Shown here: positions 2,231 through 9,346 of the stretch, piece after piece | Layout: the number at the start of each line of letters is the position of its first letter | Numbering within the stretch: position 1 is the first letter of the stretch | DNA from: Novosphingobium sp. | Lineage (GTDB): Bacteria > Pseudomonadota > Alphaproteobacteria > Sphingomonadales > Sphingomonadaceae | Direction of reading: 5' to 3' | Assembly (NCBI GenBank): GCA_016719755.1 | Contig: JADJYM010000011.1 | Coordinates: 372,001 to 436,000, forward strand | DNA: 64,000 bases | Position numbers and translations under genes: made by a program | Notes under the pieces: generated by a model | What the model was told of the DNA's origin: nothing | The model's database searches: none | The model's input: the letters and a program-made list of their open reading frames with translations, nothing else

Positions 2231-2285
2231 CAAATTTGGAACTGCCGGACAGGTTCCGGCAAGCCAGTAAGAAGGAACCGGATCA

Positions 2286-2654
2286 ATGATCCAGATGCAA
2301 TCCCAGCTCGACGTCGCTGACAACAGCGGCGCCAAGCGCGTCCAGTGCATCAAGGTGCTGGGCGGATCGAAGCGCCGGACTGCCGGCGTGGGCGACATCA
2401 TCGTCGTCTCGGTGAAGGAGGCCCAGCCTCGCACCAAGGTGAAGAAGGGTGACGTGCACCGTGCAGTCATCGTTCGCACCCGCAAGGACGTGCGCCGCGC
2501 CGATGGCAGCGTGATCCGCTTCGACAGCAACGCTGCCGTGCTGATCAACAAGAACGCCGAGCCCATCGGCACCCGCATCTTCGGCCCCGTGGTTCGCGAA
2601 CTGCGCGGCAAGGGCTACATGAAGATCATTTCGCTCGCTCCGGAGGTGCTGTAA
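2286..2654 (+). CDS. rplN: 50S ribosomal protein L14
   Basis: The 122-residue product begins [18 protein letters not shown], the invariant L14 N-terminus, and contains the VVRTRK-like strand and the [14 protein letters not shown]-terminal motif. L14 contacts S12 at the subunit interface. A GAAGGAACC ribosome-binding site precedes the start. The TAA overlaps the rplX start by one base. Gene order and length are canonical for the first gene of the spc operon. Confidence 0.98.
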
Positions 2655-2974
2655 TGGCCGCCGCGAAGATCAAGAAGGGCGACAGCGTCGTCGTCCGTTC
2701 GGGCAAGGACAAGGGCCGCACCGGCACTGTCCTCCAGGTCATGCCCAAGGAGGGCAAGGTCGTGGTTTCGGGCGTGAACGTCGCCGCCCGTCACCGCAAG
2801 CCGAGCCAGACCAACCCGCAGGGCGGGATCGACCGCCGCGAGGCACCGATGCACGTCTCGAAGGTCGGCCTGGCCGATCCCAAGGATGGCAAGGCCACCC
2901 GCGTCCGCTTCGAGGAGCAGGACGGCAAGAAGGTCCGCGTGGCCGTCAAGTCCGGGGAGAAGATCGATGGCTGA
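2654..2974 (+). CDS. rplX: 50S ribosomal protein L24
   Basis: The 106-residue product has the KOW motif of L24 near residues 5-35 ([20 protein letters not shown]) and the [18 protein letters not shown] segment. L24 is an assembly initiator that binds the 5' end of 23S rRNA. It overlaps both neighbours: its start uses the last base of the rplN stop, and its own TGA lies within the first codons of rplE. This tight overlap suggests stoichiometric coupled translation. Confidence 0.98.
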
Positions 2975-3548
2975 AAAGTACGTACCCCGTTTGAAGTCGC
3001 GTTATGACGAAGTTGTCGCCAAGGCGATGACCGAGCGCTTCGGCTACAAGAACGTGATGGAAGTGCCCAAGATCGAGAAGATCACGATCAACATGGGCGT
3101 CGGCGAAGGCAGCCAGGACAAGAAGAAGGTCCAGACCGCCGCCGCCGAAATGGCGCTGATTGCCGGCCAGAAGCCGGTCATCACCAAGGCGAAGAAGTCG
3201 ATCGCGCAGTTCAAGCTGCGTGAAGGCATGCCGATCGGTTGCAAGGTAACTCTGCGCCGTGAGCGGATGTACGAGTTTCTCGATCGCCTGATCACCGTCG
3301 CAATGCCCCGGATCCGCGACTTCCGCGGTCTGAATCCGAAGTCGTTCGATGGTCGTGGCAACTATGCCATGGGCCTGAAGGAGCAGATCATCTTCCCGGA
3401 GATCAGCTACGATCAGATCGACAAGGTGCGTGGGATGGACATCATCGTGACCACCACTGCCAAGACCGACGACGAGGCGCGCGAGCTGCTGCGTCTGTTT
3501 GGTTTCCCGTTCCCGCAGGATGCTGCCGACGCGCAGCAGGCCGCGTGA
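2967..3548 (+). CDS. rplE: 50S ribosomal protein L5
   Basis: The conserved start [16 protein letters not shown] places initiation at 2967, overlapping the end of rplX by 8 bases. The frame is open further upstream, but that part is read from rplX in another frame. The 193-residue product shows the [13 protein letters not shown] and [11 protein letters not shown] motifs that bind 5S rRNA and contact P-site tRNA. It is a little longer than the roughly 180 residues typical of the family because of an alanine-rich tail. Confidence 0.97.
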
Positions 3549-5890: not shown

Positions 5891-6067
5891 ATGGCGAAGA
5901 TCAAGATCAAGCAGATCGGTTCGCCGATCCGTCGCCCCGAAAGCCAGAAGAAGATCCTGATCGGTCTGGGCCTCGGCAAGATGCACCGCGTGGTCGAACT
6001 GGAAGACACTGCGGAAGTGCGCGGCGCGATCGCCAAGCTGCCGCATATGGTCGCCGTGATCGACTGA
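5891..6067 (+). CDS. rpmD: 50S ribosomal protein L30
   Basis: A 58-residue frame starts 5 bases after rpsE. It begins [20 protein letters not shown] and ends [10 protein letters not shown], with the [19 protein letters not shown] core of L30. It is short and easy to miss in gene calling. In the usual spc operon the next gene is rplO. Here about 2.8 kb of foreign-looking DNA follows first. Confidence 0.96.
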
Positions 6068-6093
6068 CCTCGGCTGCCTTTACCGACCATTGG

Positions 6094-6122
6094 AAGGGCC
6101 CTGGCGAAAGCTGGGGCCCTTT
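6094..6122 (+). terminator. Strong hairpin just after rpmD, possible terminator
   Basis: An 8-bp perfect stem (6094-6101 with 6114-6121) is extended inward by two G-U and two G-C pairs to a GAAA tetraloop. It is followed by TTTGACTTTC rather than a clean run of T. It lies 27 bases past the rpmD stop and before the acyltransferase remnant. It could terminate or attenuate the spc transcript, in which case rplO-secY-adk would need read-through or a promoter further down. Confidence 0.55.
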
Positions 6123-6317
6123 GACTTTCAGGAACGGCAAGCCTTGGCAGGGGGCGGCACGCGTCCTAACGTTGCTTGGGGCAATCAGGTATGTACGGCG
6201 GGTCACAAGCAATGTCGCATGCGATTGTTCCTGCTCCACGGGGCGCTTTCTTCTGGGCTGATGTGCTGCGCTTTGTCGCGGCCATGCTGGTTGTCATGGA
6301 GCATTCTCGCGATCTTC

Positions 6318-6325
6318 TTTTTTTT
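6318..6325 (+). other. T8 run where the acyltransferase frame breaks
   Basis: Before this run the acyltransferase frame reads HSRDLLFF. After it, the homologous frame (LALVEVSNLSVPWKVFYFLTG) is shifted by one base. Loss of a single T would restore the gene. Such runs are prone to slippage in replication and transcription, and to sequencing error. Confidence 0.75.
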
Positions 6326-6673
6326 GGCGCTGGTCGAGGTCAGCAACCTCTCCGTTCCTTGGAAGGTGTTCTATTTTTTGACCGGGTTCGGTAACGAGGC
6401 GGTCATTGTCTTCTTTGTGCTTTCGGGGTTCTGGATCACTTCGGCAGTGTCCCGGCGGATAGAGCGGACAGACTTCTGGCGCACTTATCTGATTGACCGT
6501 CTATCCCGCCTCCTGATCGTGTTGGTACCGGTGCTGATGCTGGGCGCGGTTCTTGACCTGACATCGATCCACCTTCTTGGTTCTCAATACGTCGACGTGA
6601 CATCCGGGGCTCTGACCGTGCAGCGACCTGTGATCGACAGTCTTGGTCCTGGCGTGCTTATTGGGAATCTGTT

Positions 6674-6697
6674 GTTTCTGCAAAAGTTGGTTTTTCC
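6674..6697. repeat. 24-bp direct repeat, left copy (target-site duplication)
   Basis: These 24 bases are identical to 8170-8193 and lie directly against the left end of the insertion element. The base just outside differs between the two copies (T versus A), so the repeat ends there. In the acyltransferase frame it encodes the FLQKLVFP region, present once in the reconstructed gene. This is the pattern of a target-site duplication. Confidence 0.9.
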
Positions 6698-6723
6698 TGT
6701 CCGTCGTCAGAACATTTGGCACA
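6698..6723. repeat. Left terminal inverted repeat of the insertion sequence
   Basis: This end starts TGTCCG and matches the reverse complement of 8144-8169 at 20 of 26 positions. The best-conserved parts are the outer 13 bases (one mismatch) and the inner TGGCACA. It abuts the 24-bp target repeat exactly. Confidence 0.85.
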
Positions 6724-6771
6724 ACTCGCGGCGTAAATTAGCGGAGTGCGGGCCTCGTCCTGGGGTTGATA

Positions 6772-7733
6772 TTAAGCGGCGATCTTGCGGTGGAGCAAGC
6801 GGCGATGTTCGATGGTCTTCCGTTTGATCCTTTCGCGCTGTTTATGATGGCACGGCCCCGCCGAAGTAGGCGTCGGCGGGCGTCACGTTGTTCAGGCTCT
6901 CGTGGTAACGTCGGTGGTTATAATGCTCGACGAAGGCTTCGATCTGGGCCTCAAGGTCACCGGGCAGGAAGTAATTTTCGAGCAGGATGCGATTCTTGAG
7001 GGTCTGATGCCAGCGCTCGATCTTGCCCTGGGTCTGGGGATGCATCGGAGCGCCGCGCACATGGCTCATTTTCCGGGCCTCGATATATTCCGCCAGTTAC
7101 CCGGATGTAGCTCGGGCCATTATCCGACAGCAGCCGAGGCTTGTGCAGCACCTGCGCTGTCGCAACCCGAGGCCTCGAGCGCGAGGTCCAGCGTGTTGGT
7201 GACATCCTCGGCTCGCATGTTGGTGCACAGCTTCCAGGCGATGATGTAGCGCGAGAAGTCGTCGAGCACGGTCGACAGATAGACCCAGCCCCAGCCAATG
7301 ATCTTGAAGTAGGTGAAGTCGGTCTGCCACATTTCGTTCGGCCGCGTCGTCTTGGTGTGGAACGCATCGGCTGCCCTGATCACGACGAAGGCCGGGCTGG
7401 TAATCAGATCATGGGCCTTGAGCAGGCGATAAACCTGGCCTCCGACACGAAGTAGCGCTTCTCGTCGGTGAAGCGCACCGCCAGTTGCGGGGCGACAGAT
7501 CGGTTGTATCCAGCGCCATGTCGATGATCTGCTGCTGGATATCGTCGCCATGCGGTTCCACACCCGGCGCGGGGCCGATGGCCGATCCTCCAACGCCCCG
7601 GGCCGCCTTCGAGATAGCGGTCGTACCAGCGATAGAAGGTCCGGCGCGGGATGCCCAACTGCTCCAGCGTGCGCCAGGCCGGAGGTGCGACTGTTCGACG
7701 ATCCGGGATCTCCACCGATGCAGGGTATCTCAT
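6772..7733 (-). pseudogene. Transposase orfB (DDE/rve domain), multiply frameshifted
   Basis: The protein pieces join into an IS3-type transposase. The N-terminus MRYPAS leads into the HTH segment GIPRRTFYRWYDRYLEGG, then VYRLLKAHDLITSPAF. The catalytic core follows: first Asp in MWQTDFTYFKIIGWGW, second Asp in PRLLSDNG, and Glu in HPQTQGKIERWHQTLKNRIL. The end is YHESLNNVTPADAYFG and a basic tail ending HRKIAA. These pieces occupy different frames, so at least four single-base indels separate them. The catalytic residues survive, but no intact enzyme can be made. Confidence 0.85.
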
Positions 7734-8061
7734 TCGTCGCGCCCCATCCGGATCAGCTTTTTTAAGCAGCGGTCAGGGTCAGGTCGGCCACGCATTCCTT
7801 CAGCCACGGGCTTCCCGGCGCAGTCCTGACCTCGCCGGTGTTGCGGCACGGGCGGTACGCCGGCGAGCCGGCGCTTGCCCGCTTCCATGAACTCCTTCGA
7901 CCAGGTGTAGTACAGGCTCTGGGCGATCCCTTCCTTGCGGCACAGTTCAGCAATGCTGTCATCGCCGCGCAGGCCTTCAAGCACGATCCGGATTTTATCC
8001 TCGGCGAGAAGTGCCGGCGTGTCGCCCGCCGGATGTCCTTCACCACCCCCGCGGAGCCCAC
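7734..8061 (-). pseudogene. Transposase orfA (helix-turn-helix), frameshifted
   Basis: The frame opening KDIRRATRRHFS breaks after about 18 codons. It continues in another frame as EGLRGDDSIAELCRKEGIAQ and SLYYTWSKEFMEAGKRRLAG, then returns as LKECVADLTL. This is the HTH_Tnp-type domain that in IS3 elements binds the ends and precedes orfB. At least two indels are present. It lies upstream of orfB in the same direction, as the family requires. Confidence 0.75.
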
Positions 8062-8143
8062 CGATTTTAAGGAGGATTTGGGCTCATCTTCGTTCCTTCG
8101 TCACTACGACGAAGCCCAACTCCTTAATTCACAACCTCAAATC

Positions 8144-8169
8144 TGTGCCATTGGCGCTGACGCCGGACA
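8144..8169. repeat. Right terminal inverted repeat of the insertion sequence
   Basis: This is the partner of the left end. Read on the minus strand it begins TGTCCGGCGTCAG. It ends exactly where the second copy of the 24-bp direct repeat begins, which fixes the element boundary. Confidence 0.85.
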
Positions 8170-8193
8170 GTTTCTGCAAAAGTTGGTTTTTCC
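8170..8193. repeat. 24-bp direct repeat, right copy (target-site duplication)
   Basis: Identical to 6674-6697 at all 24 positions. After this copy the acyltransferase frame resumes with TFGSNGPLWSL. The shift of 1496 bases between copies preserves the reading phase of the original gene once the element is removed. Confidence 0.9.
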
Positions 8194-8866
8194 GACATTC
8201 GGCTCCAATGGTCCGCTGTGGAGTCTGACATATGAGTTCTGGTATTACATCTGGTTCGCCCGCCTTATGGTTCTGGTGAAGCGGCGCAGCTTTTCGCTTG
8301 GATTGCTAACGCTCGGGTTCGGTTTTCTGTCTGTCGAACTGGTTGTTGGATTTGGCGTCTGGTTGATGGGCAGTTCTCTGTTTTACCTCGACAGGCGCGC
8401 GGTAGCGGCGAAGGACAGGGGTGGGGCCAAGGCAGTCGCGGCCCTGATCTGCTCGGTTGTCATTCTTGGCTGCGCATTGATTGCCAGCCGCCTTGCGGTT
8501 CCCTGGTTTGGCGGTTCGCTGGTATTGGGTGCCGCGTTCTCGCTTTATGCGGTTCATTTTCCTTTGGTTCTTGTTCTCGTCAGCGCCATTGCTCCTGGCG
8601 TCCGCGCCGCACCCGATGGCATCCGGCTCATGCATTGGTTCGGTGTGGTTCTTGCTGCAACGCTGGCTTCGTGGTTGTTCTCCCGGGTAACCGAAGCACG
8701 GACCGGCGGGCTTCGAGCTTGGCTGCGCCAACGATTTTTTGGCCGAAACGGCAACGGCTCAACAAGGTTGAAATGCCCTGCTGCAAAAAGTGGTGACAAA
8801 TCCTGGTCGGACGATTAATGGCGCCACTCCTATCAGCGCGACTAAAAGCGAAAGCGAGTGCAAGCT

Positions 8867-9346
8867 ATGAAACTGAATGACATCCGCGACAACGATGGTG
8901 CCCGCAAGTCCCGCATGCGCGTGGGCCGGGGCATTGGCTCGGGCAAGGGCAAGACCGCGGGCCGCGGCCAGAAGGGCGCAAAGGCGCGCTCTGGCGTCAG
9001 CGTCAATGGCTTCGAAGGCGGCCAGATGCCGCTGCACATGCGGATCCCGAAGCGTGGTTTCAATAACATTTTCGCCAAGGACTATGCCGAGGTGAATCTG
9101 GGCCTGGTTCAGAAGGCGATCGACGCCGGCAAGCTGGATGCCAAGGCTGTGGTCGATCACGCCGCTCTCAAGGCGGCCGGTCTGGCCCGTGGCGGCAAGA
9201 ATGGTGTGCGTTTGCTCGGCAAGGGCGAGTTCTCGGCCAAGGCCAGCTTCCTGGTTGCTGGCGTGTCCAAGGGCGCGCGCGAGGCAGTCGAAAAGGCAGG
9301 CGGCTCGGTCGAAGTGCCCGCTGCCAAGTCTGACGCAGCCGAATAA
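8867..9346 (+). CDS. rplO: 50S ribosomal protein L15
   Basis: The 159-residue product begins [20 protein letters not shown] and has the glycine/lysine-rich [21 protein letters not shown] stretch that threads into 23S rRNA. A GTG nine bases upstream could add three residues, but the ATG matches the family start. In a standard spc operon it follows rpmD directly. Here it is the first intact gene after the broken acyltransferase/IS block, 48 bases past the acyltransferase stop. L15 and the downstream secY are normally essential, so some transcript must reach them. Confidence 0.97.

Follow-up and report, generated by a model that had tools for sequence, protein, structure and literature searches.

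A 24-bp target duplication at a decayed insertion sequence of the ISSsp2/ISPko4 group, in which most surveyed copies have no duplication

The length of the target duplication is a feature by which insertion sequences are sorted, and is commonly taken to mirror a constant geometry within the transposase complex. In the window (the whole stretch of Novosphingobium sp. DNA analysed here, 64,000 nucleotides) an acyltransferase gene is interrupted by an insertion sequence flanked by a 24-bp direct repeat. Is the repeat a true target duplication, what type of element carries it, and do other copies of the element duplicate stretches of similar length?

The interrupted gene and the window element

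The 24-mer GTTTCTGCAAAAGTTGGTTTTTCC is found at positions 6674-6697 and 8170-8193, abutting both ends of the element. The two copies are 100% identical, in keeping with the perfect repeat described in the sequence-only reading; the left copy is defined by the direct repeat and by orthologue alignments, the right copy by the direct repeat. Once the element and one 24-mer are removed, the acyltransferase protein aligns gaplessly over the junction in four orthologue alignments (L210-L213) and, for this reason, the 24-mer is, as judged from these alignments, a true target duplication. The restored frame had been claimed from the first inspection of the DNA, and the claim holds. In each of five further orthologues (L214-L218) a single tblastn stretch crosses the junction, as measured by match extent rather than by residues. 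That the repeat is native to the gene, or stems from a later copying event, may find favour in the fact that 24 bp are seen in only 1 of 149 surveyed copies; this origin is highly improbable, as the segment is single-copy in the four orthologue alignments and the frame is restored over the junction.

The acyltransferase gene (6067-8867) belongs to a ribosomal protein operon, where its neighbours are rpmD and rplO. Its part before the element (6195-6697, plus strand) is identified by a domain match and by orthologue alignment. The part after the element (8194-8818, plus strand) gives no Pfam match alone, and is assigned by alignment to orthologues. The gene is decayed too: about 30 codons near residue 277 are absent with respect to L211 and L210, and the N-terminal part appears from its sequence to lie in another frame. 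The same placement between rpmD and rplO was found in 1 of 29 other acyltransferase loci (1.5 kb fetched at each side), that of the distant homologue L226.

The element measures 1,472 bp (6698-8169, transposase on the minus strand) and is assigned, by similarity to relatives, to the ISSsp2/ISPko4 group. Its nearest relative in the family genome sample, L002, is 97% identical; a search of its own genome retrieved this single copy and no second one. Identity along its length is 84.5% to ISSsp2 (pCAR3) and 84.2% to ISPko4 (pKON1), names which are annotations of plasmid records, where the elements are labelled IS3-like. The ends TGTCCG...GGACA, the similarity over the whole query (H10, 84.5%) and the OrfA/OrfB plan are those of ISSsp2 and ISPko4, from which the window copy differs in being decayed and flanked by 24 bp. 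Terminal inverted repeats of 26 bp had been described. They are present at 6698-6723 (left) and 8144-8169 (right), read TGTCCG.../...CGGACA, and are imperfect, matching at 20 of 26 positions.

The transposase is split across several frames, all remnants residing on the minus strand. The OrfA remnant (7730-7984), whose intact form is L069:1968-2354, matches HTH_Tnp_1 below the gathering score. OrfB is left as a helix-turn-helix part (7404-7733), identified by reading frames and domain search, and as two parts identified by reading frames and domain or model search, the first part of the rve/DDE core (7120-7593) and a C-terminal rve_3 part with the region of the catalytic E (6842-7069). Compared with its nearest relatives L002 and L031, the window copy features 38 and 40 substitutions, respectively. 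As deduced from its sequence the copy is dead, because 21 deletions and no insertion separate it from these relatives. Every indel in 6698-8169 is a deletion with respect to the two.

Duplication lengths among 149 copies

The flanks of 149 distinct copies, drawn from 286 loci chosen by similarity, were compared. Copies were kept if full-length (1,350-1,700 bp) and flanked on each side by 40 bp or more; partial, nested and contig-edge copies were dropped, and those sharing identical 40+40 flank bases were counted as one. The nested locus L241 is counted twice in the 149. An earlier version of the survey, with 60-bp flanks, comprised 126 copies. Exact flank matches measure 0 bp in 93 copies, 1 bp in 29, 2 bp in seven, 3 bp in four and 4 bp in one; longer matches measure 7 bp in three copies, 8 bp in four, 9 bp in two, 10 bp in four, and 14 and 24 bp in one each. 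When flanks of different copies are paired at random, exact matches of at least 7 bp occur about 0.1 times per 149 pairs, and matches of 0-4 bp are at chance level. No duplication above chance is thus found in 134 of the 149 copies, and 15 have duplications of 7-24 bp, the 24 bp being restricted to the window copy and 7-14 bp found in the other 14. The suggestion that IS3-like enzymes cut with a stagger of this size finds no support, as a rule, in these copies. Duplications of 3-5 bp at other copies with the same ends, which would have counted against the earlier interpretation, were not found among the 149, the 0-4 bp matches being at chance level.

Duplications are scattered. Placed on a FastTree tree built from all 149, the 15 positive copies need 13 changes; a copy of ISPko4 (L240) has a 10-bp duplication, a copy of ISSsp2 (L239) none. 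Nine genomes have clusters of near-identical copies (99% identity or higher, at least two per cluster), comprising 52 copies, of which 5 have a duplication of at least 6 bp and 47 do not. Two such clusters reside in genome G071: one includes copies with 10 and 8 bp and four without duplication, the other two copies with 8 bp and three without, one of which has a 4-bp match. Slow mutation does not explain the missing duplications, since so few of the 52 near-identical copies have 6 bp or more.

Miscalled ends do not account for the result. Shifting the ends by up to 3 bases in the first 110 loci, or outward by up to 2 bases in all 149 copies, gave no further exact match of at least 7 bp. An inexact repeat at L022 (9 of 11 positions), which may be a decayed duplication, was counted as none. 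Duplications longer than 24 bp were not found in searches extended to 1.5 kb where flanks allowed. Swapped or inverted ends, or cointegrates, were sought among 131 ends in 12 genomes, a comparison which omits most partial copies and includes one end (of L113) without flank; no match of at least 7 bp was found between ends of different copies.

Duplications that exist are picked up by the method, because the same kind of script, applied to one IS256-type element, revealed a constant 8-bp duplication at 6 of its 8 copies. This control is of limited size, and belongs to a family other than IS3. Its ends were set from copy L323, which counts by construction (5 of 7 for the others), and moving the right end by one base after a first look raised the score from 1/8 to 6/8. 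In copy L327 an 8-bp repeat is seen only if the left end is shifted by one base, and the copy was counted as none. Two copies of an IS256-type element, L327 and L356, reside in the same genome as the window (contig C12), and are 100% and 99.9% identical to a Sphingopyxis macrogoltabida plasmid copy; with the ends as called, a duplication (8 bp) is present at L356 and absent at L327.

Affiliation of the group

Relatives are widespread. DNA matches, fragments included, mark 143 of 397 genomes in the family sample, and 61 of 385 in the class sample, searched with the intact relative L069. Matches were found in 297 plasmid records, 167 of which match along 80% or more of the element, and 10 relatives reside in viral contigs. 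Among the best 5,000 plasmid records, 242 encode an OrfB with identity of 60% or higher, and OrfB identity falls from 69% to 26% across 60 rows taken along this ranking; these figures agree with the earlier suggestion of a lesser-known group. Of two distant relatives outside the 149, L358 has ends matching at 17/26 positions and no duplication, and the ends of L359 were not recognised. A literature search found no paper on ISPko4 or on an unusually long target duplication; ISSsp2 is mentioned in one paper, whose passages on this element give no duplication.

In L069, OrfA (1968-2354; 128 aa, HTH_Tnp_1) overlaps OrfB (2279-3331; 350 aa, rve), and the overlap includes an A7 run from 2316, a putative frameshift site as in the IS3 family. 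OrfB is of the DD35E type (35 residues between D and E), with K at E+7. It scores 204.2 bits against the NCBIfam IS481 model, the best-scoring one, yet below the cut-off of 224; 183.2 bits against the IS3 model, above the cut-off of 160; and 46.6 bits against ISNCY_2, whose cut-off is 250. The intact relatives, ISSsp2 and ISPko4, have IS3-type OrfA/OrfB, with a DD35E OrfB fitting slightly better as IS481 than as IS3, and the group is best read as standing at the IS3/IS481 border. IS3 ends are TGA, those of the group TGT; IS481 elements have a single transposase frame, L069 two overlapping ones. The IS3 family (IS150, IS407 and other groups) shares the HTH_Tnp_1 OrfA, the DD35E OrfB, K at E+7 and the overlap with an A7 run. 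According to passages of PMC10045372, IS3 groups have duplications of 3, 4 or 5 bp, in contrast to the 7-24 bp of the real ones here. The same passages give 2-15 bp, mostly 6 bp, for IS481, a range into which 7-14 bp fits and which 24 bp exceeds; the IS3-like OrfA and the score below cut-off also set the group apart from IS481.

Some eukaryotic elements of parabasalids (IS481EU) resemble the group in having several duplication lengths in one family (about 4, 15 and 25 bp, in the passages of PMC10045372 devoted to them), and differ in that lengths fall into discrete classes and most copies have a duplication. The IS1202 family, noted for its 16-28 bp duplications, was defined by Harmer et al. 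2023 (PMC10132070) by one large transposase with Q at E+7, and is placed inside IS481 in PMC10045372. Passages of PMC10132070 describe subgroups with 3-5, >15 and 0 bp duplications, so that duplication-free members exist; these, the TGT...ACA ends of 24-26 bp, a repeat length near 26 bp and the occurrence of a long duplication might suggest that the window element belongs there. Such membership is scarcely credible. The residue at E+7 is K, not Q; two overlapping frames replace one transposase of 394-507 aa; and the ISNCY_2 score is far below cut-off. By the features tested, IS1202 membership was rejected. Duplication length, moreover, follows the subgroup in IS1202, as far as those passages go, and varies here among copies of one element: 134 of 149 copies without duplication and one with 24 bp might fit its length classes, but 14 have 7-14 bp.

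A proposed loose spacing of the target joins, and possible later deletions

We favour, at odds only slightly better than even (about 0.55), the reading that this IS3/IS481-borderline group joins its ends to the target with loose spacing, 24 bp being the extreme. An ISSsp2-group element entered the acyltransferase gene between rpmD and rplO; the two strand joins of its ends to the target would have been made at a distance of 24 bp, and gap repair would have produced the duplication, the element then decaying by small deletions and substitutions, as its sequence indicates. The DD35E transposase, probably made as OrfA plus OrfAB via a frameshift at the A7 run, may move the element by IS3-type copying, and would keep no fixed spacing between its two strand transfers. 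Joins made 7-24 bp apart in the overlapping sense would give a duplication of equal length. More often, joins would be made further apart, or at existing breaks, target DNA being lost or rearranged and no duplication formed. Loose spacing is suggested by the 15 exact duplications in 149 copies, against about 0.1 expected by chance, and by lengths differing between copies at least 99% identical. The scatter of positive copies over the tree, the lack of swapped or inverted ends among those compared, the 14-bp duplication at L303, the target DNA missing at L305, L306 and L321, and the different gene families around six duplication-free copies (all detailed above or below) also count in its favour. 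More tentative, falling somewhat short of an even chance, is the proposal that a gap is normally captured or created on insertion, by target loss or break capture, and that a 7-24 bp duplication is sometimes left. The 24 bp were seen once, and a rare separate event may be responsible for them.

A serious rival, which we regard as possible though rather doubtful, is that every insertion duplicates 7-24 bp, and that most duplications are lost later via adjacent deletion or recombination between copies. Insertion followed by deletion would leave the same final sequence as loose spacing. Passages of Ngan et al. 2024 (PMC11708052) make such a course conceivable, as each of 14 IS150 movements linked there with large deletions is explicable as insertion plus adjacent deletion. 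The same passages report duplication-free movements of IS5 and IS481, seen at a large deletion and at a large duplication, and the entry of insertion sequences into DNA breaks is proposed; those are two laboratory events, whereas here most natural copies of a group are concerned. Flanking genes count for later loss as well as for loose spacing. Reading frames around 20 copies, chosen for long frames on both sides, were scanned with Pfam; in 7 of them each side carries a recognized family, and the two families always differ. No duplication of at least 7 bp is present in six of the 7: TonB plug and acyl-CoA dehydrogenase (L129), integrase and TonB barrel (L158), sulfatase and AMP-binding (L167), TonB plug and oxidoreductase (L198), MFS and response regulator (L141), methylase and helicase (L071, which could be one multi-domain gene). 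In L043 two neighbouring genes of different families flank a copy with an 8-bp duplication. The other 13 have a family on one side or none, and are uninformative; four more copies submitted to Pfam lie among accessory genes and were set aside.

Empty sites were sought for 13 other copies, and four (L303, L305, L306, L313) allowed a usable comparison, clean for L303 only. L303 has a clean 14-bp duplication with respect to the near-identical empty site of NZ_CP115459.1. At L305 roughly 55-70 bp are missing with respect to NZ_CP010957.1, 85-90% identical. L306 and L321, compared only with each other, lack 563 and about 640 bp, respectively, which the other has, and the two element copies are 86.6% alike. 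They are different copies near one site beside gph, in related Sphingopyxis plasmids. L313 (NZ_CP013265.1) lacks 4,211 bp present in NC_015595.1. Its left flank is identical to NZ_CP010956.1 and 97% identical to NC_015595.1, its right flank identical to NC_015595.1 and 95% identical to NZ_CP010956.1; because the flanks are identical to different plasmids, L313 is, on these sequence comparisons, a junction (mosaic) of two plasmid lineages, as later loss would have it. With respect to NC_015595.1, L313 is without virB4, the end of virB3, a further type IV secretion gene and a portion of yet another. In two plasmids, the 32-36 kb fetched past the counterpart of the left flank of L304 did not include its right flank, and no usable empty site was found for L243, L242, L315, L309, L129, L141, L017 and L122. 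Against later loss, 47 of the 52 near-identical, hence young, copies already lack any duplication reaching 6 bp, the comparison of ends, which took in a minority of the partial copies, gave no pair that was swapped or inverted, and a second event would be required at almost every new copy.

The 24-bp duplication in the window is thus genuine, and the element behind it belongs to a group whose surveyed copies lack a duplication as a rule. If a common group has duplications of variable length, or none, even where its copies are young, the geometry of the transposase complex can be loose. If the loose-spacing or break-capture reading of the ISSsp2 group is true, its members would provide a natural system to study insertion into existing DNA breaks, and whether insertion sequences drive deletions.
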